Below are positions 1,729 to 64,000 of a stretch of DNA of 64,000 nt, piece after piece. A model generated the notes under the pieces. That model saw only the letters and a list, made by a program, of their open reading frames with translations, searched no databases and was not told where the DNA came from. Position numbers and translations under genes: made by a program. The DNA is taken from NCBI GenBank assembly GCA_025210475.1, contig JAOARW010000111.1, forward strand, positions 124,001 through 188,000, given 5' to 3'. This stretch comes from Carboxylicivirga sp. GTDB lineage: Bacteria > Bacteroidota > Bacteroidia > Bacteroidales > Marinilabiliaceae. Numbering within the stretch: the first letter of the stretch is position 1; each line of letters opens with the position of its first letter.

Positions 1729-3513
1729 TTAAATTCCGTATAAAGAACCATAGGTAGCACACGCTCTATAGTCTGCACCTTCTTTTTCTTCACCGAAAGA
1801 AGACCAGGCACTCGGACGGAATACATCATCACTATCAACGTTGTGCATGTTAACCGGAATGCGCAACATAGAGGCCAATGTAATCAGGTCGGCTCCAATG
1901 TGACCATGGCTAATAGCACCGTGGTTGGCACCCCAATTAGCCATTACTGAGTACACATCTTTGAAGGCGCCTTCCCCATTTGTGCGTGGCACAAACCAGG
2001 TTGTAGGCCAGGTTGGATTTGTTCGTTCATCTAAAACAGAGTGGATCTCATCAGGTAATTCTACCGTCCATCCTTCAGCAATCTGCAGGACAGGCCCTAA
2101 TCCTTTAACCATGTTCACACGACACATGGTAACCGGCATTTGTCCGGCTGTTTTAAACAATGATGAATAACCACCTCCTCGGAAATATCCGCGTTCGGCT
2201 TGTGGCCATTGTGTGTTATCCAAACATTTTTGAGCTTCTTCCTCTGTTATCTCCCAGAATGGTTTCATAGCCGGCTCGCCTTCTTCATTGCGCTGCTGTG
2301 CAGTCGCATCCAAAGTTGTTGAACCGGAATTAATCAGGTGGATGATACCATTCTCAGCCAAACCGGTTAATTCCTTTCCAGTTACACGCTTCACTGCCTC
2401 AGGGCTCCAATAGGTACGCACATCAGAGAAAATCTGAGCCGTATTGGTCAACAAATGACCAAACAACATGGAAACACTGTTTAAACTATCGTTTTCTGTA
2501 GCAAATATATAGGCCTGACGAATTCCGTTCCAGTCAAATGATGAGTTAAGAATCGCCTCGGTGAAATCGGCATTAGGCTGATAATCGGTCCACTGACGCT
2601 GCCCCTGGAAACCTCCCAGGATTGCATTACGACCCAATCCTTCTTCTCTAAAACCTTTGTCGATAACCTTTTGATTACCCACCATCATATCGCGACAAAT
2701 CAATGTCATTTTAATTACCGTTTCCCACTCGGCATCCTTGCGTGCCTGATCGGCTTGTTTTTCAGGCGTGTTAACATCCTTACCTTCTTTACAATTTTCT
2801 TTTGTCCACGCCAATGCTTTCTGGAATTCCTCTTCATCGTAGATACCTTCATCGATTCGACGAAGTATTTCAACCGACTCAACAAATTCGGTGCGTATAC
2901 CTAAATAATCCTGAAAGAAGTTAGCATCAACCATTGATCCGGCAATACCCATTGAACTGTAACCAATCGACAGGTACGACTTGCCTTTCATTTGAGCCAC
3001 TGCAAGTGCTGCTTTTGAGAAGCGTAATAATTTTTCCTGCACATCAGCAGGAATAGTTGTATCTCCGGCATCCTGAACATCGCGTCCGTAAATACCGAAA
3101 GTCGGCAATCCTTTTTGCGTATAACCCGCCAAAGCTGCAGCTAAATACACAGCTCCCGGACGCTCAGTACCATTAAAACCCCAAACAGCTTTTGGCAATA
3201 AAGGATCGGTATCCATTACCTCGGTTCCATAACACCAACATGGCGTAACAGTTAAAGATACACCTACGCCCTCCTGACGGAATTTTTCGGCACACATTGC
3301 TGCTTCGGCAACACCACCAATACAGGTATCGGCAATCACACATTCGACTTGCTCTCCACTAGGAAATTTAAGATTGCTCTCAATAAAAGCAGCGGCTGCT
3401 TTTGCCAAATCCATTACTTGATCTTCAAGCGATTCGCGAACACCATTTTCGCGACCGTCGATAACCGGACGGATACCAATTTTGGGTAATGCACCTATTA
3501 AACGATTAGCCAT
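1729..3513 (-). CDS. fucI: L-fucose isomerase
   Basis: Converts L-fucose to L-fuculose (Mn-dependent, cytoplasmic, hexameric in the family). The 594-residue product is full length (E. coli FucI is 591) and collinear with it. Landmarks are [20 protein letters not shown] at the N-terminus, [55 protein letters not shown] carrying the catalytic Glu at about residue 340, the catalytic Asp at about 364 in [12 protein letters not shown], and NWGANHG near the C-terminus with a metal-site His. It is divergent from an AraC regulator across 121 bp and followed by fucK, so this is the fucose entry operon serving the fucosidases in the window. Identification is very secure. Confidence 0.97.
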
Positions 3514-5534: not shown

Positions 5535-6959
5535 CTATTTCGTATTAATTATCTTATATCCTACGATGGGTATCTGATTCTTCGAAAATTTCGGCATCTC
5601 AATTTCCAATCCATTTTCGCTTTGCTTCCATTTCACTTTTTTCCCCGACCCTAACATCGAAATTTCTTCAATCTTCATTTCTTTTGTGGATAGTGATTTA
5701 ATAGTAATATTGTTTTCTTTAACACTACACACATATGCGTATAGATAGTTATCTTTTGTTGTAAACCTAACTTCCGGAAAGATAACTTTTGATGTAGCAT
5801 CATTAACAGCATCTTTCATTGTGTTTTCTTTGGATGGCTTGTCAACGTCATTTTCAATGGGCTTTTGAGCTAATACTTCACATGATCTTCTCCAGGGAGA
5901 GGAGCCGTAAATCCCTTCAGAATTCTTTTTCATCCAAAGTCCCATTTCTTTTAATCTTTCTTCAGCTGGGCGTCTTATTTCACCTTCTGGTGAAGGTCCA
6001 TTATTTAGTAATAAATTTCCTCCTTTACTAACGATTTCTAATAGTTGTCTGGTCATTAGCTCAGAAGATTTGAAAACAGTATCGTATTCAATGTATCCCC
6101 AGTTCTTACTCATTGTAATGCATGCCTCCCACGGTTTTGACTCGACACTATTGACAATGTGTTGCTCTGTTACTTTATAGTCTCCCAATCCGTTACCAAT
6201 TCGACTATTTATAATACAATCAGGTTGAAGGCCCCAAATCAATTCTTGCAGTTCTTCACTTTCTTTACTACTAATCAGACTAGGCGTATCAAACCACATA
6301 ATATCAATATCGCCATATTGTGTGAGAAGTTCTTTTACCTGTGGTTTTACTTTTCTTTCGAAATATTGATTAAAAACTTTAGCATCTTCATCCGGAAAAT
6401 CCCAAGTATTGCTTCGTCCTCCTTTAGTGGGCCAATTGGTTTTCGCATCAGGATCTTGCCAGTCGCGGCCAAGTGAATAATAAAATCCAAATTTGATTCC
6501 GTTTTTACGACAGGCAGCAATTAATTCCTTCATAGGGTCTTTGCCGTATGGAGTGCACTTAACAATATTATAGTCGCTACAAGGTGAGTCGTACATTGCA
6601 AACCCATCGTGATGTTTAGATGTAATGACTAAATATTTCATTCCTGCATTTTTGGCAATTTTAACCCACTTTTCAGCATTAAACTTTTCCGGGTTAAAAT
6701 CATCTGCTATTCTTCCGTATTCTTTCCAGGGAATACGTTCGTATAGCATAAAATGCTCCGCTCCTACGGCTTTTCGCCCATCCCAATATCCAGCCGTTTT
6801 AGAATATAATCCCCAGTGCATGAACATTCCAAATTTGGCATCTTTCCACCAATCCATTTTTTCATTTTTACTTTTAGGTTGTGCATTACCTTTAAATGAA
6901 AATAATGTAACCAACATTATAAGCATGCAACTTATTGTTCTTAATATACTTAATTTCAT
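5535..6959 (-). CDS. secreted GH29 alpha-L-fucosidase (a)
   Basis: Exo-acting alpha-L-fucosidase releasing L-fucose. From the ATG at 6959 the protein starts with a signal peptide (MKLSILRTISCM...FSFKGNAQP). A GTG 27 nt upstream in frame would put a charged stretch before the signal peptide, so I reject it. GH29 landmarks are KFGMFMHWGLYSK, YLVITSKHHDGFAMYDS, GIKFGFYYSLGRDWQD, the nucleophile Asp in MWFDTP (about residue 224; the following residue is Thr where Gly is usual), SVESKPWEACITM and KGGNLLLNNGPSPEGEI. A C-terminal beta-sandwich follows (about 385-474). Its leader shares about 50 bp with that of a sulfatase gene at 31.1 kb. Linkage specificity cannot be read from sequence. Confidence 0.93.
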   Translation of the reverse strand: MKLSILRTISCMLIMLVTLFSFKGNAQPKSKNEKMDWWKDAKFGMFMHWGLYSKTAGYWDGRKAVGAEHFMLYERIPWKEYGRIADDFNPEKFNAEKWVKIAKNAGMKYLVITSKHHDGFAMYDSPCSDYNIVKCTPYGKDPMKELIAACRKNGIKFGFYYSLGRDWQDPDAKTNWPTKGGRSNTWDFPDEDAKVFNQYFERKVKPQVKELLTQYGDIDIMWFDTPSLISSKESEELQELIWGLQPDCIINSRIGNGLGDYKVTEQHIVNSVESKPWEACITMSKNWGYIEYDTVFKSSELMTRQLLEIVSKGGNLLLNNGPSPEGEIRRPAEERLKEMGLWMKKNSEGIYGSSPWRRSCEVLAQKPIENDVDKPSKENTMKDAVNDATSKVIFPEVRFTTKDNYLYAYVCSVKENNITIKSLSTKEMKIEEISMLGSGKKVKWKQSENGLEIEMPKFSKNQIPIVGYKIINTK

Positions 6960-7006
6960 GTGTTTAAATTTTCTTTCAGTTGTCACATGGAACTCTCAAG
7001 AAATTT
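6957..7006 (-). repeat. duplicated 50-bp leader, copy A (with fossil gene end)
   Basis: Counted by eye, 44 of 50 positions are identical to 31105-31154. On the minus strand the copy reads through the codons K-F-L-E-S-S-M-stop, then a 26-nt spacer, then the GH29 start codon. In copy B the equivalent codons (K-F-F-E-S-I-M-stop) are the genuine C-terminus of a PhoD-like phosphatase. Here no upstream gene exists: a stop lies just before the relic. The relic suggests this leader was copied from a position behind a phosphatase gene. Confidence 0.75.
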
Positions 7007-7157
7007 TAATCATTACCCTGTGTGAAATTATTTATGATTAAAATTTACATGTTCGTTTCATCATTCCAAATTTCATCGTTTATATTAAACAATTCATTAC
7101 TAATCAGATACCTTACAATTCATTATTGCATAAAAAAATGCAGAAACTTAATCCTAA

Positions 7158-9524
7158 TTACTGATTAGTTCTTTCTAATTTTTCATTTAAGACTATTCGA
7201 TCACCTTTTTTTGCTGATATCTTAATTGATGTATTTTGATATCGAACATTGCAAGGAGCATCAACGCCAGCGTAAATAACTACATCTTTAATCTTATTGG
7301 CTTCCCATTGAATATCAACTTCAAAACCTCCACGGGCTTTCAGACCGGTAACTTTTCCTGAAGCCCATTGACTTGGCAAGGCTGGTAACAAATTGATTTC
7401 ACCTTCGTGACTTTGCAACAGCATTTCTGCAATACCTGCCGTACCGCCAAAGTTTCCATCAATTTGAAATGGTGGATGTGTATCGAATAAATTCGATAAT
7501 GTAGACTTCTTAAGCAAGTTTATCACATTTTCATAGGCCATTTCTGAGTTATGCAATCTGGCATAAAAGTTAATGATCCAGGCTCGGCTCCAACCTGTAT
7601 GTCCACCTCCATGAGACAAACGACGTTCCAAAGTTCGACTGGCCGCCTCCATTAATTCCGGTGTTTGATTATGCGTTATTGTGCTGCCAGGATGAAGTCC
7701 GAAAAGATGTGATATATGTCGATGACCCGGATCTTGTTCTTCATAATCATTGATCCATTCCTGAATAGTACCGTCTTTACCAACTTTTACAGCCGGTAAC
7801 TTTGATAAAGCAGTTTGTACCTTATCCTGTAAATGCTTATCCACATCTAAGACTTTCATAGCCTCCAGCCCATTATTCAACACCTCTTTTACAATCATCA
7901 CATCCATCGTAGGTGCATAAGTCAAACGCATAGGTTTTTTATCTTTCCCCCACTTAAAAGAATTTTCCGGAGAATAAGATGGTGTAGTTACTAATTGTCC
8001 TAAACTATCCTCTACTAAATGATCTAGTATAAATTCCACTGATCCTTTCATCAACGGATATGCATATTCCCTCAAATAAGTTTCATCTTGTGTATACTCA
8101 TAATATCTGTAAACAGGAACTGTCATCCATGGTCCTCCCATTGGAAATAAGCCCCATTTCACACCATCATGAACGCCGGTGCGTCCAAAAACGTCGGTTA
8201 AATGATGTAATGTCCATCCCCTGGCATTATACATCTTTTGGGCTGCTGATTGGCCGGACTCACTTACGACATTCATAAATTGGGTAAGCGGATGCATGGT
8301 TTCTGACAAATTAGTTACCATAGCTGGCCAATAGTTCATCTGCAAATTAATGTTCGTGTGGTAATCTGACCCCCAGGGTGGTAAATACAAATTATTCCAA
8401 ATACCTTGTAAATTTGCCGGTAAAACACCCGGTGCACGCGAACTTCCCATCAACAAATAACGTCCGTACTGGAAATAAAGAGCCAGCAAAGCCGGATCTT
8501 CAGCTCCCTCTTTTAATTTTTTTAGTCGTACATCGGTGGGTAGAGCTGAATTGGCATTGCTTCCTAAATCAATTGTAACCCGGTTAAAATAACTTTGATG
8601 ATCGGCGACATGCCGTCTTTTTATAGTCTGATAATCTTGAAGCTGAGCCTTATTAATTAATCCCTCACATATTAAATGAGGATTAATGCTACGATCAAAA
8701 TTTAATTTTTCAATGTTGTAATCGGTGGCAGCAGTTAAAATGATGGTTACATCGCTTGCATCCCTTACTTCCAGATGATCTTCATTCTCTGTAAACACCC
8801 CGTCGCTGCTGCTGGCATTCAATAAGGCCTCAAACTTCATGTGTTCTCCACCTGGACCATATACAGGATTTTCGTCATCGATTACTTGCCCTTTCAGGCG
8901 TAAGGTACGATTATCAACAGCAAAAGTATGTGCCTCTTGTTGGCGATTGAGTTGAATAGAATAATTGATTGAATTCGGAGTATCCGCCGAAATTCTAACA
9001 ATGATAACATTGTCTGGTGCCGAAATAAAAACCTCTTTTTTATAATTTACTCCGTCAGAATTATATTCGACCTTTGAAATGCCCGTGCTGATATCCAGTT
9101 CCCGCCTGTAAGCCCTAATCGCCTCATCACGATTAAGTGAGGTTAGAATTAAATTAGCCAATGGCTCGTAAAATCGAACTTTTCGTGGAATGCCTAAAAA
9201 TGTGGTATCGGCTAAGCTTGTTGCTTCATCATTTTTGTTCTCAAATATTAACTTCCTTATTTTACCCAGGTTTTTCCCGGCTTGCTCATTGACATCATCC
9301 AACCGAACACCAGACCATAAGCTTTCTTCATTTAACTGAATGGTATCATTCTTTACACCACCGTATACCATGGCGCCCATTCGCCCGTTACCAAGGGGTA
9401 AGGCCTCTACCCATTTATTTGCAGGCTGTTGATACCATAGCTTATTGTTTGAGATCTTTTCTGTACAGTTACTGGTTAGAACAGATATTAACAGCAACAC
9501 ATATAATTGCAATCTTAATTTCAT
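7158..9524 (-). CDS. GH95 alpha-L-fucosidase, lipoprotein
   Basis: Inverting exo-fucosidase, classically of alpha-1,2-fucosyl residues; some GH95 members act on alpha-L-galactosides. The 788-residue length is typical. A lipoprotein signal ends in the lipobox LTSNC (Cys at about 20), followed by the family N-terminal motif WVEALPLGNGRMGAMVYGG. Catalytic-domain landmarks are INLQMNYWPAMVTNLSE with the catalytic Asn (about 395), TPSYSPENSF with the general-acid Glu (about 516), and FQIDGNFGGTAGIAEML with the Asp (about 690). It lies between the SusCD/lipoprotein operon and the GH29 gene and is separated from the former by a strong hairpin, so it may have its own promoter. Surface or periplasmic location is inferred from the lipobox. 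Confidence 0.94.
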   Translation of the reverse strand: MKLRLQLYVLLLISVLTSNCTEKISNNKLWYQQPANKWVEALPLGNGRMGAMVYGGVKNDTIQLNEESLWSGVRLDDVNEQAGKNLGKIRKLIFENKNDEATSLADTTFLGIPRKVRFYEPLANLILTSLNRDEAIRAYRRELDISTGISKVEYNSDGVNYKKEVFISAPDNVIIVRISADTPNSINYSIQLNRQQEAHTFAVDNRTLRLKGQVIDDENPVYGPGGEHMKFEALLNASSSDGVFTENEDHLEVRDASDVTIILTAATDYNIEKLNFDRSINPHLICEGLINKAQLQDYQTIKRRHVADHQSYFNRVTIDLGSNANSALPTDVRLKKLKEGAEDPALLALYFQYGRYLLMGSSRAPGVLPANLQGIWNNLYLPPWGSDYHTNINLQMNYWPAMVTNLSETMHPLTQFMNVVSESGQSAAQKMYNARGWTLHHLTDVFGRTGVHDGVKWGLFPMGGPWMTVPVYRYYEYTQDETYLREYAYPLMKGSVEFILDHLVEDSLGQLVTTPSYSPENSFKWGKDKKPMRLTYAPTMDVMIVKEVLNNGLEAMKVLDVDKHLQDKVQTALSKLPAVKVGKDGTIQEWINDYEEQDPGHRHISHLFGLHPGSTITHNQTPELMEAASRTLERRLSHGGGHTGWSRAWIINFYARLHNSEMAYENVINLLKKSTLSNLFDTHPPFQIDGNFGGTAGIAEMLLQSHEGEINLLPALPSQWASGKVTGLKARGGFEVDIQWEANKIKDVVIYAGVDAPCNVRYQNTSIKISAKKGDRIVLNEKLERTNQ

Positions 9525-55265: not shown

Positions 55266-55579
55266 TATTTCTGGATTTAAGCTAGCCGCTAAAACTTATT
55301 AACTAGTGGCTAGGTTATTATTCCCCGAAAGATGCCAGTTTGAAGACTGAACTACTGTTGTGAATTACATTTAATCACTTAAGCTAAAACATAGCAATGC
55401 TATACTTAGCTTTTGAGTTCTTTTACATCTTTCGGGATTAAAAGTTTATTTAAAAATTAGTTATAAAATCAGATAGTAACCAGTTGTATGTTGCTAATAT
55501 TATAAATTCAAAAGTTTAATTCGAACTCAGGTTAATACCAATTAGCACAACTGGCTACTATCTCAATACAACAAACTAT
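55266..55579. repeat. structured gene-free region between xylA and the porter
   Basis: 314 bp with no gene but four inverted repeats. They are AGATAGTAACCAGTTGT (55471-55487) against 55547-55563 (17 nt, one mismatch, 59-nt loop); CCCGAAAGATG (55324-55334) / CATCTTTCGGG (55426-55436); a compound hairpin AAGCTAA-ATAGC-GCTAT-TTAGCTT (55381-55412) inside the latter; and CTAGCCGCT/AGTGGCTAG (55282-55290/55305-55313) just before the porter start. Could be the xylA terminator plus a structured 5' leader of the porter mRNA, or a non-coding RNA. No known riboswitch class recognised. Confidence 0.6.
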
Positions 55580-56896
55580 TTAAATGTACATGTTAATTAA
55601 CTGCTCATAGCGCTCTTGCTTACCGCTAATCATTTTTGGCTCACCCGCTTCTTTAGCAATCTTACGTAAATCTTCAAGCGATAATTTACCAGCTGCAAAC
55701 TCGGCACCTTTCCCACTGTCAAATGAGGCGTAACGCGCTGCTTTTTGCTGTAAGTAATCACTGTTAGTTAATATATCATCGGCAATAACCAAGGCACGAG
55801 CGAAAGTATCCATACCCGAAACGTGAGCAATGAAGATATCCTCCAGGTCGGTTGAGTTACGACGTGTTTTGGCGTCGAAATTAATACCTCCACCTTGTAA
55901 TCCACCTGCCTGAAGAATCACCATCATGGCTTGTACCGTTTCCGGAATACTTGTTGGAAATTCGTCGGTATCCCATCCATTTTGGTAATCGCCTTTATTG
56001 GCATCAATCGAAGCTAACATACCGGCATCGGCAGCACATTGCAATTCATGCTCAAAGGTATGCTGTGCCAATGTAGCATGGTTCACTTCAATATTTAGTT
56101 TAAAGTCTTTATCCAGGCCATAGTGACGCAAGAAACCAATCACCGTTTCAGCATCTACATCGTACTGGTGCTTTGATGGCTCCATTGGCTTAGGCTCAAT
56201 CAAGAAACTACCTGTAAAACCATTCTTACGAGCATAGTCGCGCGCCATGGTTAGGAATTGTGCCATGTGCTCTTTCTCAGCTTTCATATCGGTATTAAGC
56301 AAAGACATGTAACCTTCGCGACCACCCCAGAACACATAATTCTGGCCACCTAAAGCAATTGTGGTATCAATGGCATTCTTCACCTGTGTAGCAGCATGTG
56401 CCAGGGCTGTAAAATCAGGGTTGGTAGAAGCACCATTCATGTAGCGAGCGTTTGAGAAAACATTAGCAGTACCCCAAAGCAAGTTAACACCTGTTTCTTT
56501 CTGATATTGCTGAGCAATAGGAATGATCTTAGCTAAACGCTCCTCGATTTCGAAAACAGTACCATCACCAACTACATCAGTATCGTGAAAACAATAGAAT
56601 GGTGCGCCAATTTTGGTGAAGAATTCAAAAGCAGCATCCATCTTATATTTGGCCTGATCCATTGCATCAGCACCTTTATTCCATGGAAAAACCTGTGTAC
56701 CCGGTCCAAACGGATCGCCACCATCACCGCAGAATGTGTGCCAGTACGCAATCGCAAAACGCATATGCTCAGCCATTGTTTTACCTGCAATTACCTGCTC
56801 TGGATTGTACCATTTGAATGCTAATGGATTTTTTGAATCTCTGCCTTCGTAGGCAATCTTTCCAATTCCAGGAAAATATTCGTTACCTGTTGCCAT
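55580..56896 (-). CDS. xylA: xylose isomerase
   Basis: 438 residues, the usual length of class II xylose isomerases. Converts D-xylose to D-xylulose in the cytoplasm with two divalent metals. Landmarks are [39 protein letters not shown] with the catalytic His, [56 protein letters not shown] with metal-binding Glu, [18 protein letters not shown] and [20 protein letters not shown]. Lies 152 bp after xylB and 314 bp before the porter. Confidence 0.97.
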
Positions 56897-57048
56897 GTTT
56901 TGTAATGTTTAATGTCGAAATTGATCTGCTTTCAGTTTAATAAACCCTTAACAGAGATCTTCCTTCCAACATTTTGATTTGTATATTAATTGATTGTTTT
57001 TTCTTTGTAAAACAGTGATTTGGATAACTCCCCAAACTCTGCCTTTCT

Positions 57049-58524
57049 TTATTTATTCAATTCACTTTTCCAGTTTTCATAAGTCACTTCCAACGCATCT
57101 ATATTATCTGCAATTGGGCGAATCACTTCTACTTTTTCGAGCGAGGCAAATGCTTCTTCTAAAGATTGGTATAAACCAGCACCATAGGCTGCACCCCGTG
57201 CAGCTCCTAACGCACCATCTGTTTCATACAATTCTATTGTCGATCCGGAGATATCGGCTAAAGTCTGACGGAAAATGGGACTTAAAAACATATTTGCCTT
57301 ACCAGCCCTAATAACTTTGGTTTCGATACCAGTTTGTTCCATTACCTCCATACCATATTTAAAGCTAAAGGCAATTCCTTCCTGAGCGGCACGCAACATG
57401 TGCCCGCGCGTATGAATGTTGAAATTCAAATTTTTCATACTGGCCCCGGGATTTTCATTCTTCAAAACTCGCTCAGCGCCATTCCCGAATGGAAACACCA
57501 ACAAGCCATCACTACCCGGAGCAACAGCATCTGCTTCATCGTTCATCTGAACGTAATCCAATTCGGCCGCTACATTCTTGCGCAACCATGAGTTTAAAAT
57601 TCCGGTTCCGTTGATACATAGTAAGACACCCAGACGGTTGTCAATATTGGTATGATTTACATGTGCAAAAGTATTCACTCGCGATGCCGGATCGTATTTT
57701 AACTGATCGCTAACGCCATACACCACCCCCGAAGTTCCTGCTGTGGCAGCCACCTCTCCAGGATTCAATACATTTAAACTTAAAGCATTATTGGGTTGAT
57801 CGCCCGCCCGATAAGAAATAGCAATACCGGCTTTCAATTCCAGTTCTTTTGCTGTAGCATCACTTAACAAACCCTGTATTTCAAAGGTTTCTTTAATTTC
57901 AGGAATGAGATCCTCACTAAATCCATAGTTTGCCAAAAGTTCTTTTGAAACACTCTGCGTTTTAAAATCCCAGAAAATACCTTCAGACAAACCACCTTTA
58001 GTCGTTACAATATTGCCTGTTAACTTATATGCAATATAATCACCCGGCAGCATGATTTTATGTACTTTAGCAAAAGTATCCGATTCATTTTCTTTAACCC
58101 ACTTAAGCTTCGACGCCGTAAAATTACCTGGTGAATTCAGCATATGCGATAAACAATGCTCGTCGCCAATTTCGTCAAAAGCCCTATTTCCATAATCAAT
58201 GGCACGACTGTCGCACCAAATAATGGCAGGCCTTAAAACATTTCCATCTTTGTCAACTGTTACCAGGCCATGCATCTGATAAGAAATACCAATTGATTTG
58301 ATGGCTGACTTATCAATGTTTGAAGCAGCCAACACATCCTTCAGGGCTAGCTTTAGGTTATTCCACCACTCCAACGGATCTTGTTCAGCCCATTCGGCGT
58401 TCGGACTGGAAATGGCCATTTCTTCTTTCGGATAAAAAGCCGAATTAACTGCTTTACCCGTTTCCACATCAAGCAAAGCCACTTTAACTGATGAGCTACC
58501 TATATCGAATCCTAATGAATACAT
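57049..58524 (-). CDS. xylB: xylulokinase
   Basis: 491-residue FGGY kinase; phosphorylates D-xylulose to xylulose 5-phosphate for the pentose phosphate pathway. Landmarks are LGFDIGSSSVKVALLDVETG at the start, GISYQMHGLVTVD, RPAIIWCDSRAIDYGN, GDYIAYKLTGNIVTTKGGLS, RAGDQPNNALSLNVLNPGEV, AATAGTSGVVYGV, EGIAFSFKYGMEVM and AGKANMFLSPIFRQTLADIS. It is first of the xylose genes after the regulator and carries a GntR operator-like site 18 bp before its start (58543-58559). Confidence 0.95.
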   Translation of the reverse strand: MYSLGFDIGSSSVKVALLDVETGKAVNSAFYPKEEMAISSPNAEWAEQDPLEWWNNLKLALKDVLAASNIDKSAIKSIGISYQMHGLVTVDKDGNVLRPAIIWCDSRAIDYGNRAFDEIGDEHCLSHMLNSPGNFTASKLKWVKENESDTFAKVHKIMLPGDYIAYKLTGNIVTTKGGLSEGIFWDFKTQSVSKELLANYGFSEDLIPEIKETFEIQGLLSDATAKELELKAGIAISYRAGDQPNNALSLNVLNPGEVAATAGTSGVVYGVSDQLKYDPASRVNTFAHVNHTNIDNRLGVLLCINGTGILNSWLRKNVAAELDYVQMNDEADAVAPGSDGLLVFPFGNGAERVLKNENPGASMKNLNFNIHTRGHMLRAAQEGIAFSFKYGMEVMEQTGIETKVIRAGKANMFLSPIFRQTLADISGSTIELYETDGALGAARGAAYGAGLYQSLEEAFASLEKVEVIRPIADNIDALEVTYENWKSELNK

Positions 58525-58542
58525 ACTTTTCTGTTTGCGTAC

Positions 58543-58559
58543 TGTTCTGTACTGGTATG
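58543..58559. promoter_or_regulatory. operator-like repeat upstream of xylB
   Basis: TGTTCTGTACTGGTATG; 16 of 17 positions match TGTTCTGTTCTGGTATG at 59595-59611 upstream of the GntR gene, at the same distance (17-18 bp) from the start codon. Probably the GntR regulator's binding site. Confidence 0.65.
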
Positions 58560-58570
58560 GTGCAAATGTA

Positions 58571-58600
58571 TAAAAAAAGAATCATCTCTATAATGATTCT
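58571..58600 (-). terminator. intrinsic terminator of the GntR gene
   Basis: AGAATCAT (58593-58600 complement) / ATGATTCT stem of 8 bp with the stop codon in the 7-nt loop, followed on minus by TTTTTTTA (58571-58578). A textbook terminator that separates gntR from xylB, so the two have separate promoters. Confidence 0.8.
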
Positions 58601-59577
58601 CTAAAAAATATTTTCGTTGGAACACAATAATCCATCTCTAAGTCATTGGATGCGAAGGCTGCTGCCTTTTGTCCCATAACTTTAAAATCAGTAGATATAA
58701 CCGAGATACCTTTATAAATAAACTTCTTCATCGGCGTTTCATTGTACGAAAGAATTCCCACATCGACACCTGGCTCAAGTTTGCGTTCCTTACATTGCTC
58801 CAATATATGCCCTAGCATTCGGTCACTCACGCTAAAATACATATCCCCTGCCCTTACACTTAATTCATCTTCATTGCTTAAGCGATAATAATCGTACTTC
58901 ATTTCGGAGCAATACTGCTCGAAACATTTAGCTGTAACCTCCGGATGATAGGTATAGGTTGGATAAACCATTATTTTTCGTCGGTACTTTTGTATTAGAT
59001 GATCAGCCTCCTGAAGGGCTTTGTATACCGGCCTATCAAAATCCTGATACAGCTTATTTTTAATCTTATTGATATTGGTGTTCCAGTCAATGATTAAAGT
59101 TTTTTCAGGCGGCAACATACTAACCACTTCACTTATTTCCGAATCATCAAAAGGCATAATAATGTACTTGCTATATCGCCCCTTGTTCTCGGTAATTAAT
59201 TTCTTAAACAGCTCAATATTATAATGATGAAAGTGCACATCGGCTATAATATCTTTACCCAGACTCTTTACAAATTCACCATACAACACCTCCTTGTACG
59301 CCTTAAAAGTATCGAGAAAAAGAAAAACCTTACGTCCCTCTTTTGCAATAAAGTAGCCCTTATTAGGCACAGACTCTATAATGCCTTGTTCCTTTAAAAT
59401 TCCATAGGCCTTAAACACGGTGTCTCTCGACAACTTATAAGTCTGGCAAATGGTATTCACTGAAGGAAGCTGATCACCTTCGTGAAGTTTATTTTCTGCT
59501 AAAGCATTAACCACCGTATCGATTAACTGCTGAAATTTTGGAATATCACTATTGGATATAATGCTAAATTTTATCAT
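58588..59577 (-). CDS. GntR-family regulator with sugar-binding domain, probable xylose repressor
   Basis: 329 residues from the ATG at 59577. A Met 39 nt upstream exists, but the operator-like repeat lies between the two, which favours the downstream start. Residues about 1-75 are a GntR winged helix (FQQLIDTVVNALAENKLHEG, QLPSVNTICQTYKLSRDTVF, KAYGILKEQGIIESVPNKGY). The rest is a periplasmic-binding-protein-like sensor (GRKVFLFLDTFKAYKEVLYG, LEPGVDVGILSYNETPMKKF, GISVISTDFKVMGQKAA). The same architecture is found in Bacteroides sugar regulators, including the fucose repressor. Its own terminator, self-operator and xylB operator make a xylose-responsive repressor the best reading. Confidence 0.85.
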   Translation of the reverse strand: MIKFSIISNSDIPKFQQLIDTVVNALAENKLHEGDQLPSVNTICQTYKLSRDTVFKAYGILKEQGIIESVPNKGYFIAKEGRKVFLFLDTFKAYKEVLYGEFVKSLGKDIIADVHFHHYNIELFKKLITENKGRYSKYIIMPFDDSEISEVVSMLPPEKTLIIDWNTNINKIKNKLYQDFDRPVYKALQEADHLIQKYRRKIMVYPTYTYHPEVTAKCFEQYCSEMKYDYYRLSNEDELSVRAGDMYFSVSDRMLGHILEQCKERKLEPGVDVGILSYNETPMKKFIYKGISVISTDFKVMGQKAAAFASNDLEMDYCVPTKIFFRESL

Positions 59578-59594
59578 CCTGATGGAAATATAAT

Positions 59595-59611
59595 TGTTCT
59601 GTTCTGGTATG
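59595..59611. promoter_or_regulatory. operator-like repeat upstream of gntR
   Basis: TGTTCTGTTCTGGTATG, 17 bp before the preferred gntR start; partner of the site before xylB. An 8-bp inverted repeat CTTACTTT/AAAGTAAG (59628-59635/59643-59650) lies a little farther upstream. Confidence 0.6.
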
Positions 59612-59764
59612 CACAAAAGTATGATTTCTTACTTTAATTATCAAAGTAAGCTTAAATATCACCCTCTTTTTAGGTGTAGAATGGATTCGAGGATAACGGG
59701 TAATACCTGGATAATAGATTGATATCCTGTTATTATTTTGCAAATAATCTTCCTGAAAATTGCA

Positions 59765-60637
59765 CTATTTGTATTTAGGCTCGCCATGAGAGCGGTAATA
59801 TGACGGACTTTTAGATGTGTACTTTTTGAAGATTCGTGAGAAATAAGCTAAACTTTTGAAACCACATTCTTCAAAAATCTTTTTAATGGGCAAATCAGTT
59901 GTTAATAGCAGAAACTGCGCTTTTTCTATTCGCTTTTTAATGATAAACTCGTTGGGCGGAATGGAAACAATGGATTTGAAAATTTTGGTGAAGTGATCGT
60001 TGGACAAGCAGGCCATCTGAGCCAATGTTTCGATTTTAATGTTTTCTTTCAAATTCGCCTGAATGTATTCCATTATAGGCCGAATATTATATCGCAATTC
60101 CACATTTCCCATGGAACTGTTCTCGTCAATAATAAATCGAGAAAGTAATTGTTCCAAAATGCCTCTGGACTCAACCAACAGTGATGGATTCGAATACTTA
60201 ACGGGTGTATTAAGCCACTCTTTCTTTTGATATACATCCGGATCGGGGTGCGGAAGAGCTAAATTGGGGTTGATCTCAAGCAATCGCTTGAATAGTAGCA
60301 AATCCAAATCACTACTCTTCATTTTTCTTTCTGCCCGGTACAGTTTGTACACATTAAGACCATTTATAAGAGCTGTTTCAAAATGAATGTAATAATGCTC
60401 CAAATATTGATCGAAATAATATGAACATGGCGTATAACTTGGTATTAAATAAATATAGTTCGGTTCCAACACAATTTTCTCTCCATCAATCATCAACCAG
60501 CCATTACCTTCTGTAATGTAATATAACCTTGAAAAAGGACTAATTACATAGGCATATTCCCTTTGACTATCAAACCGCGAAAGTGCAATACTCTTCAGCT
60601 TAAAGTTAATTAAATGCGACAACTCTTCTACGCTCAT
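59765..60637 (-). CDS. AraC-family regulator divergent from the RhaT-like transporter
   Basis: 290 residues from the Met at 60637 (a Met at 60682 would add 15 residues). N-terminal cupin-like sensing domain (about 20-110: LYYITEGNGWLMIDGEKIVL, YIYLIPSYTPCSYYFDQY), a linker domain, then the AraC double HTH (IKIETLAQMACLSNDHFTKI, PPNEFIIKKRIEKAQFLLLT, IKKIFEECGFKSLAYFSRIF, TSKSPSYYRSHGE). Divergent from the transporter/methyltransferase operon with overlapping -7 boxes and a 23-bp palindrome between them; it should control that operon. Its sugar ligand is unknown. Confidence 0.85.
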   Translation of the reverse strand: MSVEELSHLINFKLKSIALSRFDSQREYAYVISPFSRLYYITEGNGWLMIDGEKIVLEPNYIYLIPSYTPCSYYFDQYLEHYYIHFETALINGLNVYKLYRAERKMKSSDLDLLLFKRLLEINPNLALPHPDPDVYQKKEWLNTPVKYSNPSLLVESRGILEQLLSRFIIDENSSMGNVELRYNIRPIMEYIQANLKENIKIETLAQMACLSNDHFTKIFKSIVSIPPNEFIIKKRIEKAQFLLLTTDLPIKKIFEECGFKSLAYFSRIFKKYTSKSPSYYRSHGEPKYK

Positions 60638-60755
60638 AATTCTGATTGTTTGCCCCTTACACCCATCTTTATTTAGAACCATTTTAAAGATAGCGAAGTA
60701 CTTTATCGTAAAAGTTCAAATTTAGCCTGAAAAATGACAATTACAAGTGAAGCCT

Positions 60756-60855: not shown

Positions 60856-61887
60856 ATGAATTCAAGTATAATTTTAGGCATAACACTCATTGCCTTAGGA
60901 GCCTTTTCTTCAGGTAGTTTCGCCATGCCATTTGATAAAGTAAAAGGTTGGAAATGGGAAACCTTTTGGATGGTTTTCAGTGTGGCAGCCTACGTCATCT
61001 TTCCAATTCTATCGTGTTTAATTTTCGCCCCGGAATACCTTCAGGTCTTTAAGAGCATTCCTACAAAAACAATCATCTGGGTATTCTTTTTAGGCTCCGT
61101 TTATGGCATCGGAAACTTATCGTTCGGACTCTCACTTCGATATCTGGGCTTATCGCTCGGATATGCACTTGCCCTTGGACTCATGCTGGCAATTGGTACA
61201 TTAATTCCTCCGCTCATTGATGGTCGCCTGGCTGAGTTATTTACAACTGATGGCGGCAACAAACTTATTTTAGGAATTATTATCGCCATTGTTGGTATAG
61301 CTTTGGTTGCCTACACGGGATTTTTAAAAGACAAGCTTAGTGATAAGTCTGAATCAATAACAGAGTTCAATTTTACGAAAGGTGTTTTGGCAGCCATACT
61401 TGTAGGTATTACCGGATCAGCTATGTCATTAGGGATTGAACAAGGCACACCAATTTCTGATATGGCAATTAAACAAGGTACCGATCCATTCTTCGCAGTT
61501 AATCCGGTGCTTTTAATCTTGCTATCCGGCACATTGGTTACAACCATCCTTTGGTGTGGTTATCAGGGCTTCAAAAATAATTCGCTAAAGGAATATGTTA
61601 AGGTTGAGAAACGTTCGATCCTAATCACCAATTACCTATGGTGTACCCTGGCCGGAGGACTATGGTTCATTCAATTCTTTTTATACGGAATGGGGAAAAG
61701 CCAAATGGGACGATTATCCTTTATTGCCTGGGGAGTGTTAATGGCCCTAACAATAGCCTTTGCTACTGTGTGGGGATTGATTCGCAAAGAATGGAAAGGC
61801 GTAACAACTAAAATATACCTGTTACTGGCAATTTCATTATTAGTGATCATTCTGGCCTCGTTTTTAATCGGGATGAGTGCTTCTTAA
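60856..61887 (+). CDS. RhaT-like deoxysugar:H+ symporter
   Basis: 343 residues, about 10 membrane segments, in the DMT-superfamily RhaT family. Landmarks are LIALGAFSSGSFAMPFDKVK, GWKWETFWMVFSVAAYVIFP, LGSVYGIGNLSFGLSLRYLG, LSLGYALALGLMLAIGTLIP and GIIIAIVGIALVAYTGFLKD; order and motifs are as in E. coli RhaT (KKWSWETMW, GIGNINYGLTMRYLG). Native substrate of that protein is L-rhamnose. Here no rhamnose isomerase is visible but a methyltransferase and mutarotase follow, so a methylated or unusual 6-deoxysugar is possible (inference). 30 bp before the methyltransferase gene. Confidence 0.88.
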   Translation: MNSSIILGITLIALGAFSSGSFAMPFDKVKGWKWETFWMVFSVAAYVIFPILSCLIFAPEYLQVFKSIPTKTIIWVFFLGSVYGIGNLSFGLSLRYLGLSLGYALALGLMLAIGTLIPPLIDGRLAELFTTDGGNKLILGIIIAIVGIALVAYTGFLKDKLSDKSESITEFNFTKGVLAAILVGITGSAMSLGIEQGTPISDMAIKQGTDPFFAVNPVLLILLSGTLVTTILWCGYQGFKNNSLKEYVKVEKRSILITNYLWCTLAGGLWFIQFFLYGMGKSQMGRLSFIAWGVLMALTIAFATVWGLIRKEWKGVTTKIYLLLAISLLVIILASFLIGMSAS

Positions 61888-61917
61888 ATAATTATTAAAA
61901 TCTAACTACAGATAAAT

Positions 61918-63165
61918 ATGACTTCCAGAGAAAGAGTTTTAACAGCTATTCGACATGAGCAACCAGACAGAGTGCCAATTGATTTGGGGGCAACTCCAAG
62001 TTCAGGCATTTCTGCCATTGCCTATAGCAACTTAATTAAACACATAGGTAAAGAACATTTACCTGTTCAAATATACGATGTTGTTCAACAGTTGGCACAG
62101 CCAGATGATTCTGTATTAAATCAGTTTGGTGTAGATGTAATTGACATCGGTCGTGCCTTCAATACCAGCCCTGCAGATTGGAAACCTACCACACTGGCCA
62201 ACGGCGATCAAGCCTTGTATCCATCATGGTTCTCACCAATTGCCCGTGACGATCATTCATATGTTACCTTCGACGATGATGGCACCACCCAATTGGCCTA
62301 TATGCCTAAGGGTGCTACTTTCTTCGATCAGACATATTTCCCATACGAAGCTGGTTATCCTGACAACTACGATACACTGGATGCTGAAATGGGACGCATA
62401 TTGTGGGCGCGTTATGCCCATAGTCCATGGGATCATGCTACCGATGATGATTTTTGGCAACAACTCAGAGCCAAAGCATTGCATTTGCGTGCAACCACCG
62501 ACAAAGCTTTAATGATTGTATGCGGTTGTAACTTATTTGAGTGGGGTACATTCTTGCGCCGAATTGATAACTTCTTAATGGATTTAATGATGGATCCTGT
62601 AAACGTGGAGAAGCTATTGGATGAGTTATTAAAGCGTCACCTGGCCACTTTAGAAAAAGTTTGCAAGGCTGTTGGCGATGTGGTTGATATCATCCGTTTT
62701 GGTGATGACCTGGGAATGACACAAGGACCATTTATGGATCCTGAAGTTTATCGTCAGCTATTTAAGCCGCGTCATAAAATTCTTTGTGACTATGTAAAGG
62801 CAAATAGTAAAATGCACACCTTTATTCATTCTTGTGGTTCCATTTCATTACTGATGCCTGACTTAATTGATGCAGGTATTGAAATTTTCAATCCAGTTCA
62901 AACCAATGCCGTTAATATGGAACCCGAATTCTTAAAGAAAGAGTTTGGCGATGCTTGTACCTTCTGGGGTGGAGGTGTTGAAACCGTCGGAACACTTAAT
63001 AACGGATCTACGCAGCAAGTGCGTGAACAAGTATTAGAGCGTCTTGAAATCATGTCGAAAGGTGGAGGTTTTGTGTTTAATACGGTTCACAATATTTTGC
63101 CAGATGTTCCACCAGAGAATATTGTGGCCATGTTTGATGCGGTTAATGAATTCAATAACAAATAG
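61918..63165 (+). CDS. uroporphyrinogen-decarboxylase-family corrinoid methyltransferase
   Basis: 415 residues of the URO-D/MtaA/CmuA superfamily. The start RERVLTAIRHEQPDRVPIDL is the family opening. HSCG places a His304-x-Cys306 zinc pair where MtaA has H-x-C. The third ligand, Cys in MtaA, seems to be His391 in NTVHNILPDVPPENI. FWGGGVETVGTLNNGSTQQV completes the barrel. Such proteins move methyl groups to or from a corrinoid protein. The gene is followed by a mutarotase (5 bp) and a corrinoid protein, so it is a methyltransferase, not haem biosynthesis. The methyl donor is unknown; a methoxylated sugar is the hypothesis favoured by context. Confidence 0.85.
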   Translation: MTSRERVLTAIRHEQPDRVPIDLGATPSSGISAIAYSNLIKHIGKEHLPVQIYDVVQQLAQPDDSVLNQFGVDVIDIGRAFNTSPADWKPTTLANGDQALYPSWFSPIARDDHSYVTFDDDGTTQLAYMPKGATFFDQTYFPYEAGYPDNYDTLDAEMGRILWARYAHSPWDHATDDDFWQQLRAKALHLRATTDKALMIVCGCNLFEWGTFLRRIDNFLMDLMMDPVNVEKLLDELLKRHLATLEKVCKAVGDVVDIIRFGDDLGMTQGPFMDPEVYRQLFKPRHKILCDYVKANSKMHTFIHSCGSISLLMPDLIDAGIEIFNPVQTNAVNMEPEFLKKEFGDACTFWGGGVETVGTLNNGSTQQVREQVLERLEIMSKGGGFVFNTVHNILPDVPPENIVAMFDAVNEFNNK

Positions 63166-63170
63166 GAACT

Positions 63171-63554
63171 ATGAGCTTGCAAGAAAAAGAATATAAAGTA
63201 GCTGAATTATCAGGAGAAACAAAGCGCGTGTGCCTGGCACTTGACTTAAAAGATGATCCTGAATTAATGGAGAAATATAAATGGTATCATAAACCAGAGA
63301 ATAACTGGCAAGAGATTAATGATGGCATTATCGCATCGGGAGTACAAATTATGGATATCTACCTGATCGACAACCATATGTTTATGATTTGTGATGTGGC
63401 GTCAGAAGCCGATTTTGATGAAGTATGGAATAAAATGGGTACCTATCCTCGCCAGGGAGAGTGGGCCGAGTTGATGGCAACTTTCCAGCAGGCTTTACCT
63501 GGTCGCAAATTAGAGTGGGTCAAAATGGAGCGCGTGTTCACGCTGAATAAGTAA
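63171..63554 (+). CDS. L-rhamnose mutarotase family protein (rhamnose/fucose anomer epimerase)
   Basis: 127 residues. Interconverts alpha and beta anomers of a 6-deoxy sugar. Family landmarks are RVCLALDLKDDPELMEKYKW, the active-site His in WYHKPENNWQEINDGI, GVQIMDIYLIDNHMFMICDV and KMGTYPRQGEWAELMATFQQ. Slightly longer N-terminus than E. coli RhaM (104 aa). Substrate may be L-rhamnose, L-fucose or a methylated derivative. It sits between the methyltransferase and the corrinoid protein with gaps of 5 and 19 bp, so its sugar is likely the same molecule that enters the methyl-transfer pathway. Confidence 0.88.
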   Translation: MSLQEKEYKVAELSGETKRVCLALDLKDDPELMEKYKWYHKPENNWQEINDGIIASGVQIMDIYLIDNHMFMICDVASEADFDEVWNKMGTYPRQGEWAELMATFQQALPGRKLEWVKMERVFTLNK

Positions 63555-63573
63555 CAAGGAAAAACAAACAAGC

Positions 63574-64000
63574 ATGAAAGAGATATTTGAAAAACTAGCA
63601 ACCTGTATTGAATTTGGTAAAATTAATGAAGCAGCACCATATCCGCCAAACCTTAAGGGAGAACTGGGAGCTGATGAATTAACCCAAGAAGCCCTGGCAA
63701 AAGGAGCCACAGCCACACAGATACTTAATGAAGCGCTTATCATTGGCATGGAGAAAATTGGTATAAAGTTTCGTGATGGGAAAGTATTTGTACCACAAGT
63801 TTTAATGTCGGCTAAAGCCATGGATACAGCTATGCAGCATATCAAGCCACTTCTTCAGCAGGATGATGTGGAGCAAAAAGGAACTGTGATTATAGGCACT
63901 GTTGAAGGTGATTTGCACGATATTGGTAAAAACATTGTAGCCATGATGGTAGAAGGAAATGGCTGGAATGTAGTTGATCTGGGTACCAATGTTAACGCGG
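63574..64000 (+). CDS. cobalamin-binding methyl carrier (corrinoid) protein, cut by window end
   Basis: 142 codons visible; the 3' end is beyond the window. N-terminal helical cap (about 1-95: TQILNEALIIGMEKIGIKFR, GKVFVPQVLMSAKAMDTAMQ) followed by the B12 domain with the base-off motif D113-x-H115-xx-G118 (GDLHDIGKNIV) and DLGTNV. Same architecture as MtaC/MtbC. The His coordinates cobalt, which carries the methyl group taken by the URO-D-type protein. Start ATG at 63574 is 19 bp after the mutarotase. A reductive activator or second methyltransferase would be expected beyond the window. Confidence 0.92.
   Translation, partial: MKEIFEKLATCIEFGKINEAAPYPPNLKGELGADELTQEALAKGATATQILNEALIIGMEKIGIKFRDGKVFVPQVLMSAKAMDTAMQHIKPLLQQDDVEQKGTVIIGTVEGDLHDIGKNIVAMMVEGNGWNVVDLGTNVNA

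Follow-up and report, generated by a model that had tools for sequence, protein, structure and literature searches.

The window, a stretch of 64,000 nucleotides from a contig of the anaerobic bacteroidote Carboxylicivirga sp., ends within an operon of eight plus-strand genes. When the contig was read past the window end, Pfam assigned a RhaT-like transporter, the URO-D-family protein MT1, RhaM, the corrinoid protein CorP, a GH29-like lipoprotein, MT2trx, CobW, and MetHact, in this order and with intergenic gaps of -1 to 37 bp (Table 1). A gene for an AraC-family regulator is divergent from the operon. This regulator and the first four genes had been described in a first-pass annotation; their positions and families were borne out by Pfam, and the gaps of 30, 5, and 19 bp between the four genes were exact. 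A second methyltransferase, a sugar enzyme, and a RACo-type activator had been suggested as genes to look for downstream. The first two are present in the same operon as MT2trx and the GH29 protein. The genome had no PF14574 match for RACo, and the MetH-type reactivation protein occupies its place.

Table 1. Features of the operon and its context. Entries beginning with L005 lie outside the window (window position = L005 + 58000).
Feature	Position	Strand	Evidence and remarks
AraC-family regulator	59765..60682	-	Pfam HTH_AraC, AraC_binding
RhaT-like sugar/proton symporter	60856..61887	+	Pfam RhaT 1.3e-64
MT1, URO-D-family methyltransferase, proposed sugar O-demethylase (donor side)	61918..63165	+	Pfam URO-D 2.6e-22
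RhaM, L-rhamnose-mutarotase family	63171..63554	+	Pfam rhaM 1.1e-20
CorP, corrinoid carrier protein	63574..64000 (window end; full gene L005:5574-6242, extrapolated end 64242)	+	B12-binding 4.7e-23, B12-binding_2 1.5e-16
GH29-like lipoprotein	L005:6280-7299	+	GH29 family
MT2trx, URO-D + thioredoxin-like domain	L005:7316-8671	+	Pfam URO-D 3.6e-57
CobW-type GTPase	L005:8693-9643	+	
MetHact, stand-alone MetH-type reactivation protein	L005:9643-10326	+	
L-fucose isomerase	1729..3513	-	Pfam Fucose_iso_N1/N2/C; context, outside operon
GH29 + GH95 fucosidases, fucose-oriented utilisation locus	5535..9524	-	Pfam Alpha_L_fucos 3.4e-89, Glyco_hydro_95_cat 3e-171; context

The RhaT-like protein matched PF06379 with 219.1 bits (cut-off 27) and missed every listed NCBIfam RhaT cut-off, the best score being 323.9 of 468. 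The 7.4 Mb genome has two RhaT genes. Since the other copy, which is 38% identical to the one in the window, adjoins RhaA (rhamnose isomerase) on contig C1, we rejected the window copy as the general rhamnose carrier. The L-fucose isomerase gene in the window, about 57 kb from the operon on the same contig, is one of two copies in the genome (89% identical). Outside the window the contig carries GH95, GH20, and three sulfatases; in the locus downstream, SusC and a two-component regulator were identified by eye. Relatives of the AraC regulator with 35-61% identity were found near the operon at loci L009-L012, L014, L016, L043, L044, L115, and L116.

Methyltransferase sites and corrinoid machinery

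The assignment of MT1 to the URO-D family and its predicted fold were based on Pfam, PDB profile matches, and structure prediction. The profile matches were to 4ay7 (E 0.00019), 4wsh (E 0.00022) and, weaker, CdmB (9rui, E 0.0043), the sole member compared of the MTI clade of aromatic O-demethylases (OdmB, MtvB, VdmB, MtoB, CdmB). The VIA-align list for MT1 comprised UroD, MtaA-type, and MetE structures; CdmB stands outside this list, which has no bearing on kinship. MT1 was rejected as the heme UroD of the genome because of a far better PF01208 match on contig C37 (4.5e-93). By family and fold, MT1 would be the donor-side methyltransferase, and by family, MT2trx (PDB match to 4ay7, 2.5e-27) is the putative second methyltransferase of the operon; both activities are predicted.

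All 40 aligned rows of MT1 showed the site pattern H-x-C...H, and the third Cys was missing in each of them. In the MT1 of the window the residues are His304, Cys306, and His391. MT1 shares the H-x-C pair with MtaA. Its third site residue, a His, is also found at this place in the genome's own UroD, and it may be inherited rather than a ligand. In MT2trx the pattern is F-x-C...C, with Phe at the position of the MtaA His and the two Cys kept; cysteines of the protein lie in CAPC, VCG, and PGC stretches.

Type 1 mlp clusters (Kountz and Balskus, PMC10418091) likewise combine several URO-D methyltransferases with a corrinoid protein, have no folate methyltransferase, and are suspected to use a thiol acceptor. 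The His-Cys-Cys zinc site of their Mlps (some Mlp1 excepted) is found neither in MT1 nor in MT2trx; among the related proteins, this site of the S-methyltransferases is present in the short type on the acceptor side and missing on the donor side. The operon further differs in carrying sugar genes instead of S/Se genes and, in this genome, MetHact instead of a Ram/RACE protein. PMC10418091 ties such sets of URO-D proteins, corrinoid protein, and activator to methyl-S and methyl-Se compounds. A cassette for these compounds or for the salvage of methylthio-sugars, with the sugar genes handling the carbon skeleton or being bystanders, would also fit the two Cys of MT2trx and the homocysteine methyltransferase domain near 6 of 40 CorP loci. 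We consider it unlikely, given the lack of the third Cys throughout the MT1 alignment, the lack of any S/Se gene beyond the corrinoid machinery among the eight operon proteins, and the recurrent neighbours, which are fucosidases, RhaT, RhaM, and galactokinase.

CorP is a stand-alone corrinoid carrier with B12-binding domains, and its GDLHDIGKN stretch fits the B12 lower-ligand motif DxHxxG. In NCBIfam it scored best against a betaine corrinoid protein, with 188.6 bits where the cut-off is 370. Corrinoid systems exist for methanol, betaine, and methoxy-aromatics, and the methyl donor could be one of these compounds from the same glycan or habitat, such as methanol from methyl esters. Aromatic and chloromethane systems are described in PMC13222342, which places CdmB near the aromatic O-demethylases; the match of MT1 to CdmB is weak, however, and no MtaB- or MttB-type enzyme was detected among the eight operon proteins (E 0.001). 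A downstream methanol, betaine, or aromatic pathway had been named in the first-pass annotation as evidence against a sugar. All three were rejected, as matching genes were absent among the eight operon proteins (Pfam, NCBIfam), and a donor of this kind is very unlikely in our view.

MetHact is predicted to have the AdoMet-binding activation-domain fold of MetH, based on the structure predicted for a MetHact homologue. The genome encodes two PF00809 proteins, of 286 aa (the size of FolP) and 1264 aa (the size of MetH), and no dedicated PF00809 methyl-THF:corrinoid methyltransferase. Since this genome has neither such an enzyme nor RACo, we concluded that the operon is not a standard acetogen O-demethylase. 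It also differs from the three-component systems by which acetogens demethylate aromatic compounds (MtvABC, OdmABC, Vdm) and from archaeal Mto, systems named in part in PMC13222342, in its link to deoxysugar uptake and a glycosidase and in having a second methyltransferase that is itself URO-D. Common to all of them are a UroD-superfamily donor enzyme, a separate corrinoid protein, a second methyltransferase, and reductive activation. With MetH and the split methionine synthase MtgC/D/E (PMC12478193) the operon shares corrinoid and reactivation domains, here as separate proteins, and at the six loci mentioned above the homocysteine methyltransferase domain as well; in contrast to these systems, the proposed donor is a sugar instead of methyl-THF or betaine, and the donor enzyme is of the URO-D family.

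Recurrence of the gene set in other genomes

RhaT lay within 4.5 kb in 13 of the 16 loci of the clade to which the window's MT1 belongs (support 100/100). Locus L118 falls inside this RhaT clade, yet has a different sugar gene set: related donor enzymes occur with lyxose-isomerase, PfkB, and mannitol-dehydrogenase genes at L118 (with CorP) and L017 (without CorP). At five other loci the CorP half is combined with galactokinase and another URO-D, and one URO-D clade had galactokinase in 5/7 and CorP in 7/7 loci. Labels such as LyxIso, GalK, HCY, GH38, and GH92 stand for similarity to proteins named once by Pfam and not for Pfam results per row. A search of 395 genomes across the phylum gave no galactose-type URO-D with an E-value up to 1e-40; the panel had no known positive, so that this result says little beyond rarity. 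The fucose/rhamnose-type version is present in the cultured species Parabacteroides gordonii (L008) and Sunxiuqinia elliptica (L011). A pattern-based MT1 scan of the genome collection, which detects close relatives only, yielded 14 loci from 53 pattern matches, and a search of 72,556 plasmid records with MT1 gave one weak match (33% over 54% of the query).

MT1 and CorP co-occurred. In the order panel, 20 of the 23 genomes that have MT1 also have CorP, compared with 24 of the 370 that lack MT1 (393 genomes; p 1.3e-18, Fisher, relatedness ignored); the corresponding counts were 11 of 13 versus 10 of 87 genomes in the relatives panel (100 genomes; p 1.6e-7, likewise with relatedness ignored). 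Matches were counted at E up to 1e-50 for MT1 and 1e-60 for CorP, and the relatives panel shares 6 of the 23 MT1 genomes and 9 of the 44 CorP genomes of the order panel. Over the two panels together, five MT1 genomes showed no CorP, namely G440, G445, G676, and G695 (76-86% complete) and G804 (93%).

MT1 and CorP were at most 7 kb apart at L005, L008-L012, L016, L043, and L118. Many MT1 homologues in sugar loci, for example at L013-L015, L017-L020, and L045-L049, had no CorP on the fetched stretch, as would be expected if MT1 were a corrinoid-independent sugar enzyme of URO-D fold that happens to share its operon with a generic corrinoid methyl cassette. We regard this as quite unlikely in view of the presence of CorP somewhere in most MT1 genomes, the nine loci with both genes, including that of the window, and the MtaA-like H-x-C pair. 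The H-x-C...H pattern alone is no proof of a corrinoid enzyme, because a URO-D with this pattern is encoded apart from the corrinoid gene, on contig C93, and because, of 19 genomes in which MT1 has only weaker URO-D relatives, counted irrespective of motif, CorP was absent in 14 (present in 5).

Within 7 kb of CorP an acceptor candidate was found in 36 of 40 loci, or in 33 on a stricter count, as those of L075, L079, and L128 are distant URO-D relatives only (21-25% identity); the relatives at L075 and L079 miss the His-Cys-Cys pattern. MetHact was found within this distance in 29/40 loci, and RACo was near 10/40. A sugar gene from the listed set was within 7 kb of CorP in 21/40 loci, and in 12/30 of those fetched for CorP (L060-L079, L122-L131), where the RhaT tag of L060 is weak (26% over 104 residues). 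The sampling took in all 22 strong places of the relatives panel, 10 further ones of the order panel, and L118. The 40 loci are not independent, since two Sunxiuqinia loci are near-identical and part of the set entered through MT1 searches; L121 (same record as L016, both with a contig of 5,257,441 nt) and L081, L082, and L083 (CorP at 41%, 31%, and 43%) were left out. The gene set was found again alongside sugar genes in other genomes, as the first-pass annotation had anticipated, and because of this recurrence we consider the arrangement to be more than chance.

A proposed route for methyl sugars

Corrinoid demethylation of a sugar, the interpretation of the first-pass annotation, is supported by the analysis, with the sugar as substrate deduced from sequence. 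We consider it probable that the operon serves the use of an O-methylated 6-deoxyhexose; methyl-L-fucose is the most likely sugar, and methyl-L-rhamnose is less likely. Outside the cell, the methyl sugar would be freed by the GH29 lipoprotein together with the fucosidases encoded nearby; the dedicated RhaT homologue would import it, and RhaM would convert its anomers. MT1 would bind it via the metal site and transfer the O-methyl group to Co(I) of CorP, from which MT2trx would pass it on; the acceptor is probably a thiol and may be homocysteine. The free sugar could then enter the ordinary isomerase pathway, an L-fucose isomerase being present. MetHact may re-reduce CorP in place of RACo, perhaps with SAM, and CobW may load metal or corrinoid. 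The observations behind this proposal are gene content, order, and families, the predicted folds of MT1 and the MetHact homologue, conservation, and co-occurrence; from these we infer the reactions, the methyl acceptor, and the choice of sugar. A point against the proposal is that methyl groups are more difficult to remove from alkyl than from aryl ethers. In principle, methyl transfer by corrinoid systems can run in either direction, and the operon could instead produce methyl sugars that the cell puts into glycans of its own. This is extremely unlikely, as the importer, the mutarotase, the exported fucosidase, and the utilisation-locus neighbours look catabolic and glycosyltransferase or nucleotide-sugar genes are absent among the eight operon proteins.

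2-O-methyl-fucose and 2-O-methyl-xylose are found in plant RG-II and methyl sugars also in animal and bacterial glycans, and an O-methyl group blocks the ordinary catabolism of a sugar. 6-O-methyl-galactose occurs in algal porphyran, and marine Flavobacteriia demethylate 6-O-methyl-D-galactose by a cytochrome P450 (PMC10033563, citing Reisky 2018). According to the same paper, this route likewise removes O-methyl from a glycan-derived monosaccharide in a sugar-utilisation locus, but it is oxidative and yields formaldehyde, whereas the route of the operon would keep the methyl group on cobalt and need no O2. No P450 with redox partners was found among the eight operon proteins (Pfam). The P450 route was the only methyl-sugar demethylation described in the literature searched, and no corrinoid sugar demethylase was reported in the open-licence literature, although such a report may have been printed elsewhere. 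A 2025 study of porphyran degraders from the gut states that anaerobic demethylation of 6-O-methyl-galactose is not elucidated and that the mechanism is probably still to be discovered (PMC12316285). The galactokinase-linked variant is a concrete candidate for this step, and the operon itself a candidate for the oxygen-free removal of methyl groups from glycan sugars.

Our preferred reading is that corrinoid O-demethylases, each specific for a sugar, deliver methyl groups to a common acceptor cassette that probably ends on a thiol. With evenly balanced confidence we extend this to a Bacteroidota-wide class of B12-dependent, O2-independent sugar O-demethylases, in which interchangeable URO-D donors, one for each sugar (fucose/rhamnose, galactose, perhaps mannose or uronate), would be combined with a single conserved cassette for the acceptor side (CorP, MT2, CobW, and MetHact, optionally with RACo); the methyl group would go to a thiol, in some cases homocysteine, so that glycan methyl would feed methionine. 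If the class exists, cobalamin-dependent demethylation of alkyl ethers would provide the anaerobic route that is so far missing for glycans with methyl groups. If the proposal for the operon is true, genes for anaerobic methyl-sugar demethylation would be named, with the cultured species and the galactokinase-linked version open to direct test, glycan breakdown would be linked to B12 supply, and corrinoid chemistry would reach beyond aryl to alkyl ethers.

Structure of the operon and its sugar context

The four plus-strand genes described in the first-pass annotation, encoding RhaT, a URO-D-family methyltransferase (MT1), RhaM and a corrinoid protein (CorP), are real and exactly placed, and its observation was confirmed. 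We followed the contig beyond the window (G000:C100:124001-188000) in L005 and L006; L005 position plus 58000 gives the window position, as checked over a 6000-base overlap. The operon extends by four further genes to eight in all, separated by 30, 5, 19, 37, 16, 21 and -1 bp, and an AraC-type gene is divergent from it. SusD, SusC (named by reading), GH95, GH20, three sulfatases and a GH3 follow on the opposite strand. An open stretch behind MetHact, a stand-alone MetH-type reactivation protein, lacks a start and resembles, on reading only, the C-terminal end of a sulfatase; it reads like the remnant of a decayed gene.

Genes of the operon and other features discussed
Feature	Position	Strand	Length (aa)	Remark
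RhaT		+	343	operon gene 1
MT1 (URO-D)		+	415	operon gene 2
RhaM		+	127	operon gene 3
CorP		+	222	operon gene 4
GH29-family protein		+	339	operon gene 5
MT2trx	L005:7316-8671	+	451	operon gene 6; URO-D + thioredoxin-like
CobW GTPase		+	316	operon gene 7
MetHact		+	227	operon gene 8
Open stretch	L005:10329-10580			behind MetHact
Xylose-type gene set	window 53874-59616	-		adjoins operon
Further URO-D protein	G000:C93:65199-65777		353	L003, L141

The far end of the window encodes L-fucose isomerase, GH29, GH95 and SusD with a TonB-dependent receptor, and two sulfatases and one further GH29-family protein were found among the mid-window genes tested. The genome has two L-fucose isomerases, one rhamnose isomerase and two RhaT genes. 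The second RhaT shares 38% identity with that of the operon and lies next to the genes for the rhamnose isomerase and a GH78-like protein; the operon RhaT is thus an extra carrier rather than a housekeeping one. This context favours fucose over rhamnose as the sugar of the operon and does not decide between them. A gene set adjoining the operon (MFS sugar transporter, xylose-isomerase-like protein with an AP_endonuc_2 Pfam match below the family cut-off, FGGY kinase, GntR-type regulator) looks like a xylose operon.

Association of MT1 with CorP and conservation of the gene set

A search of 100 relatives found MT1 (threshold E 1e-50) in 13 genomes; stand-alone orthologues of CorP with 50% identity or more were present in 21. 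CorP occurred in 11 of the 13 MT1 genomes versus 10 of the 87 others (p 1.6e-7). In the order panel of 393 genomes (CorP at E up to 1e-60) the numbers were 20/23 versus 24/370 (p 1.3e-18); both p-values ignore kinship, and the panels overlap. Over the two panels, the MT1 genomes without CorP were G440, G445, G676, G695 and G804. As controls, CorP was found in 5/19 genomes whose best URO-D relative was weaker (E between 1e-50 and 1e-30) and in 5/68 with neither kind. RACo, the activator of acetogen-type O-demethylases, occurred in 12/100 genomes, 11 of them with CorP.

A single pattern-based scan of 84,980 species genomes for MT1 yielded 14 loci (L008-L021). RhaT, MT1, CorP, MT2 and MetHact are clustered in Parabacteroides gordonii (L008), a Parabacteroides MAG (L010), Bacteroides ndongoniae (L012), Sunxiuqinia (L009, L011), a Bacteroidetes MAG (L016) and the own-genus genome G403 (L043). 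MT1 is present in 3 of 14 own-genus panel genomes (G000, G398, G403) and, phylum-wide, in only 5 of 395 at E up to 1e-50, the source genome counted in both cases. No RhaT was seen within the stretch examined around MT1 of G398 (L047).

Variable donor side and constant acceptor side of the proposed system

In a tree of URO-D proteins (95 rows, neighbour genes scored within 4.5 kb), the window MT1 falls into a 16-member clade (support 100/100) with RhaT nearby in 13. The members without it are L053, L118 and L114, the contig of L114 stopping about 250 bp past MT1. L118 has CorP and lies beside genes for lyxose isomerase, PfkB, mannitol dehydrogenase and an alginate-lyase/heparinase-like protein; it breaks a simple clade-to-sugar rule. 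Lyxose-isomerase, GH92, GH38 or mannitol-dehydrogenase genes accompany three members (L017, L019, L049) of a six-member clade (100/99). In a separate seven-member clade (100/100) CorP is adjacent in all seven and galactokinase present in five. Relatives of MT1 (57-60%) at L017, L019, L048 and L049 are accompanied by alpha-mannosidase (GH38/GH92), lyxose-isomerase or PfkB genes (by Pfam for L017, by similarity for the others), with no corrinoid gene within the stretch examined; these are possible methyl-mannose loci. G000 encodes another URO-D protein with an H-x-C...H pattern on contig C93, with no corrinoid gene in the 12 kb examined.

Among 40 CorP loci (identity at least 45%, one duplicate removed), 36 have an acceptor candidate within 7 kb (33 by a stricter count), that is, MT2trx, the short type or a homocysteine methyltransferase domain. 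Within the same distance, 29 loci have MetHact, 21 have CobW, 10 have RACo and 21 have one of the listed sugar genes. The donor side varies with the sugar genes and the acceptor side is constant, the pattern expected of interchangeable sugar demethylases. Galactokinase, URO-D, CorP, MT2trx and CobW form one run in L060, L065, L066, L123 and L126, and MetHact is part of four of them (the L065 contig stops short of it), RACo of three; these runs are candidate anaerobic demethylases for methyl-galactose. For the 6-O-methyl form of this sugar, PMC10033563 describes an oxidative P450 route.

MT2trx and its orthologues consist of a URO-D domain fused to a CxxC thioredoxin-like domain, and Phe replaces the zinc His in 19/19 rows. 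The homocysteine methyltransferase domain was present in 6/40 loci (Pfam PF02574 on L077, the others by similarity), which points to homocysteine as acceptor there. In these loci (L055, L073, L074, L077, L124, L125) the domain is stand-alone, and they are possibly split methionine synthases with an unusual methyl donor.

Proposed mechanism and known systems

From protein families and gene neighbours we infer the mechanism as a whole. The methyl sugar would be metal-bound in MT1, its methyl group would be taken by Co(I) CorP, and MT2trx would hand it onward. THF is unlikely to be the acceptor through the known route, because G000 has no dedicated PF00809 methyl-THF:corrinoid methyltransferase, its PF00809 proteins being only of FolP and MetH size. 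PMC10946705 reports a cobalamin-dependent demethylation of methyl phenyl ethers that makes use of thiols. The RACo-type activator sought by the first-pass annotation is absent from the G000 genome, and MetHact is therefore the likely re-activator of CorP. With the exception of RACo, the idea of the first-pass annotation, a corrinoid sugar demethylase, survived all computable tests made.

Nearest in logic are the type 1 mlp clusters (PMC10418091), CdmBCA (PMC13222342) and split methionine synthases (PMC12478193). Searches of the open-licence literature found no description of a corrinoid enzyme that demethylates sugars. The operon is a variant of an established type of system, and its substrate class would be new.
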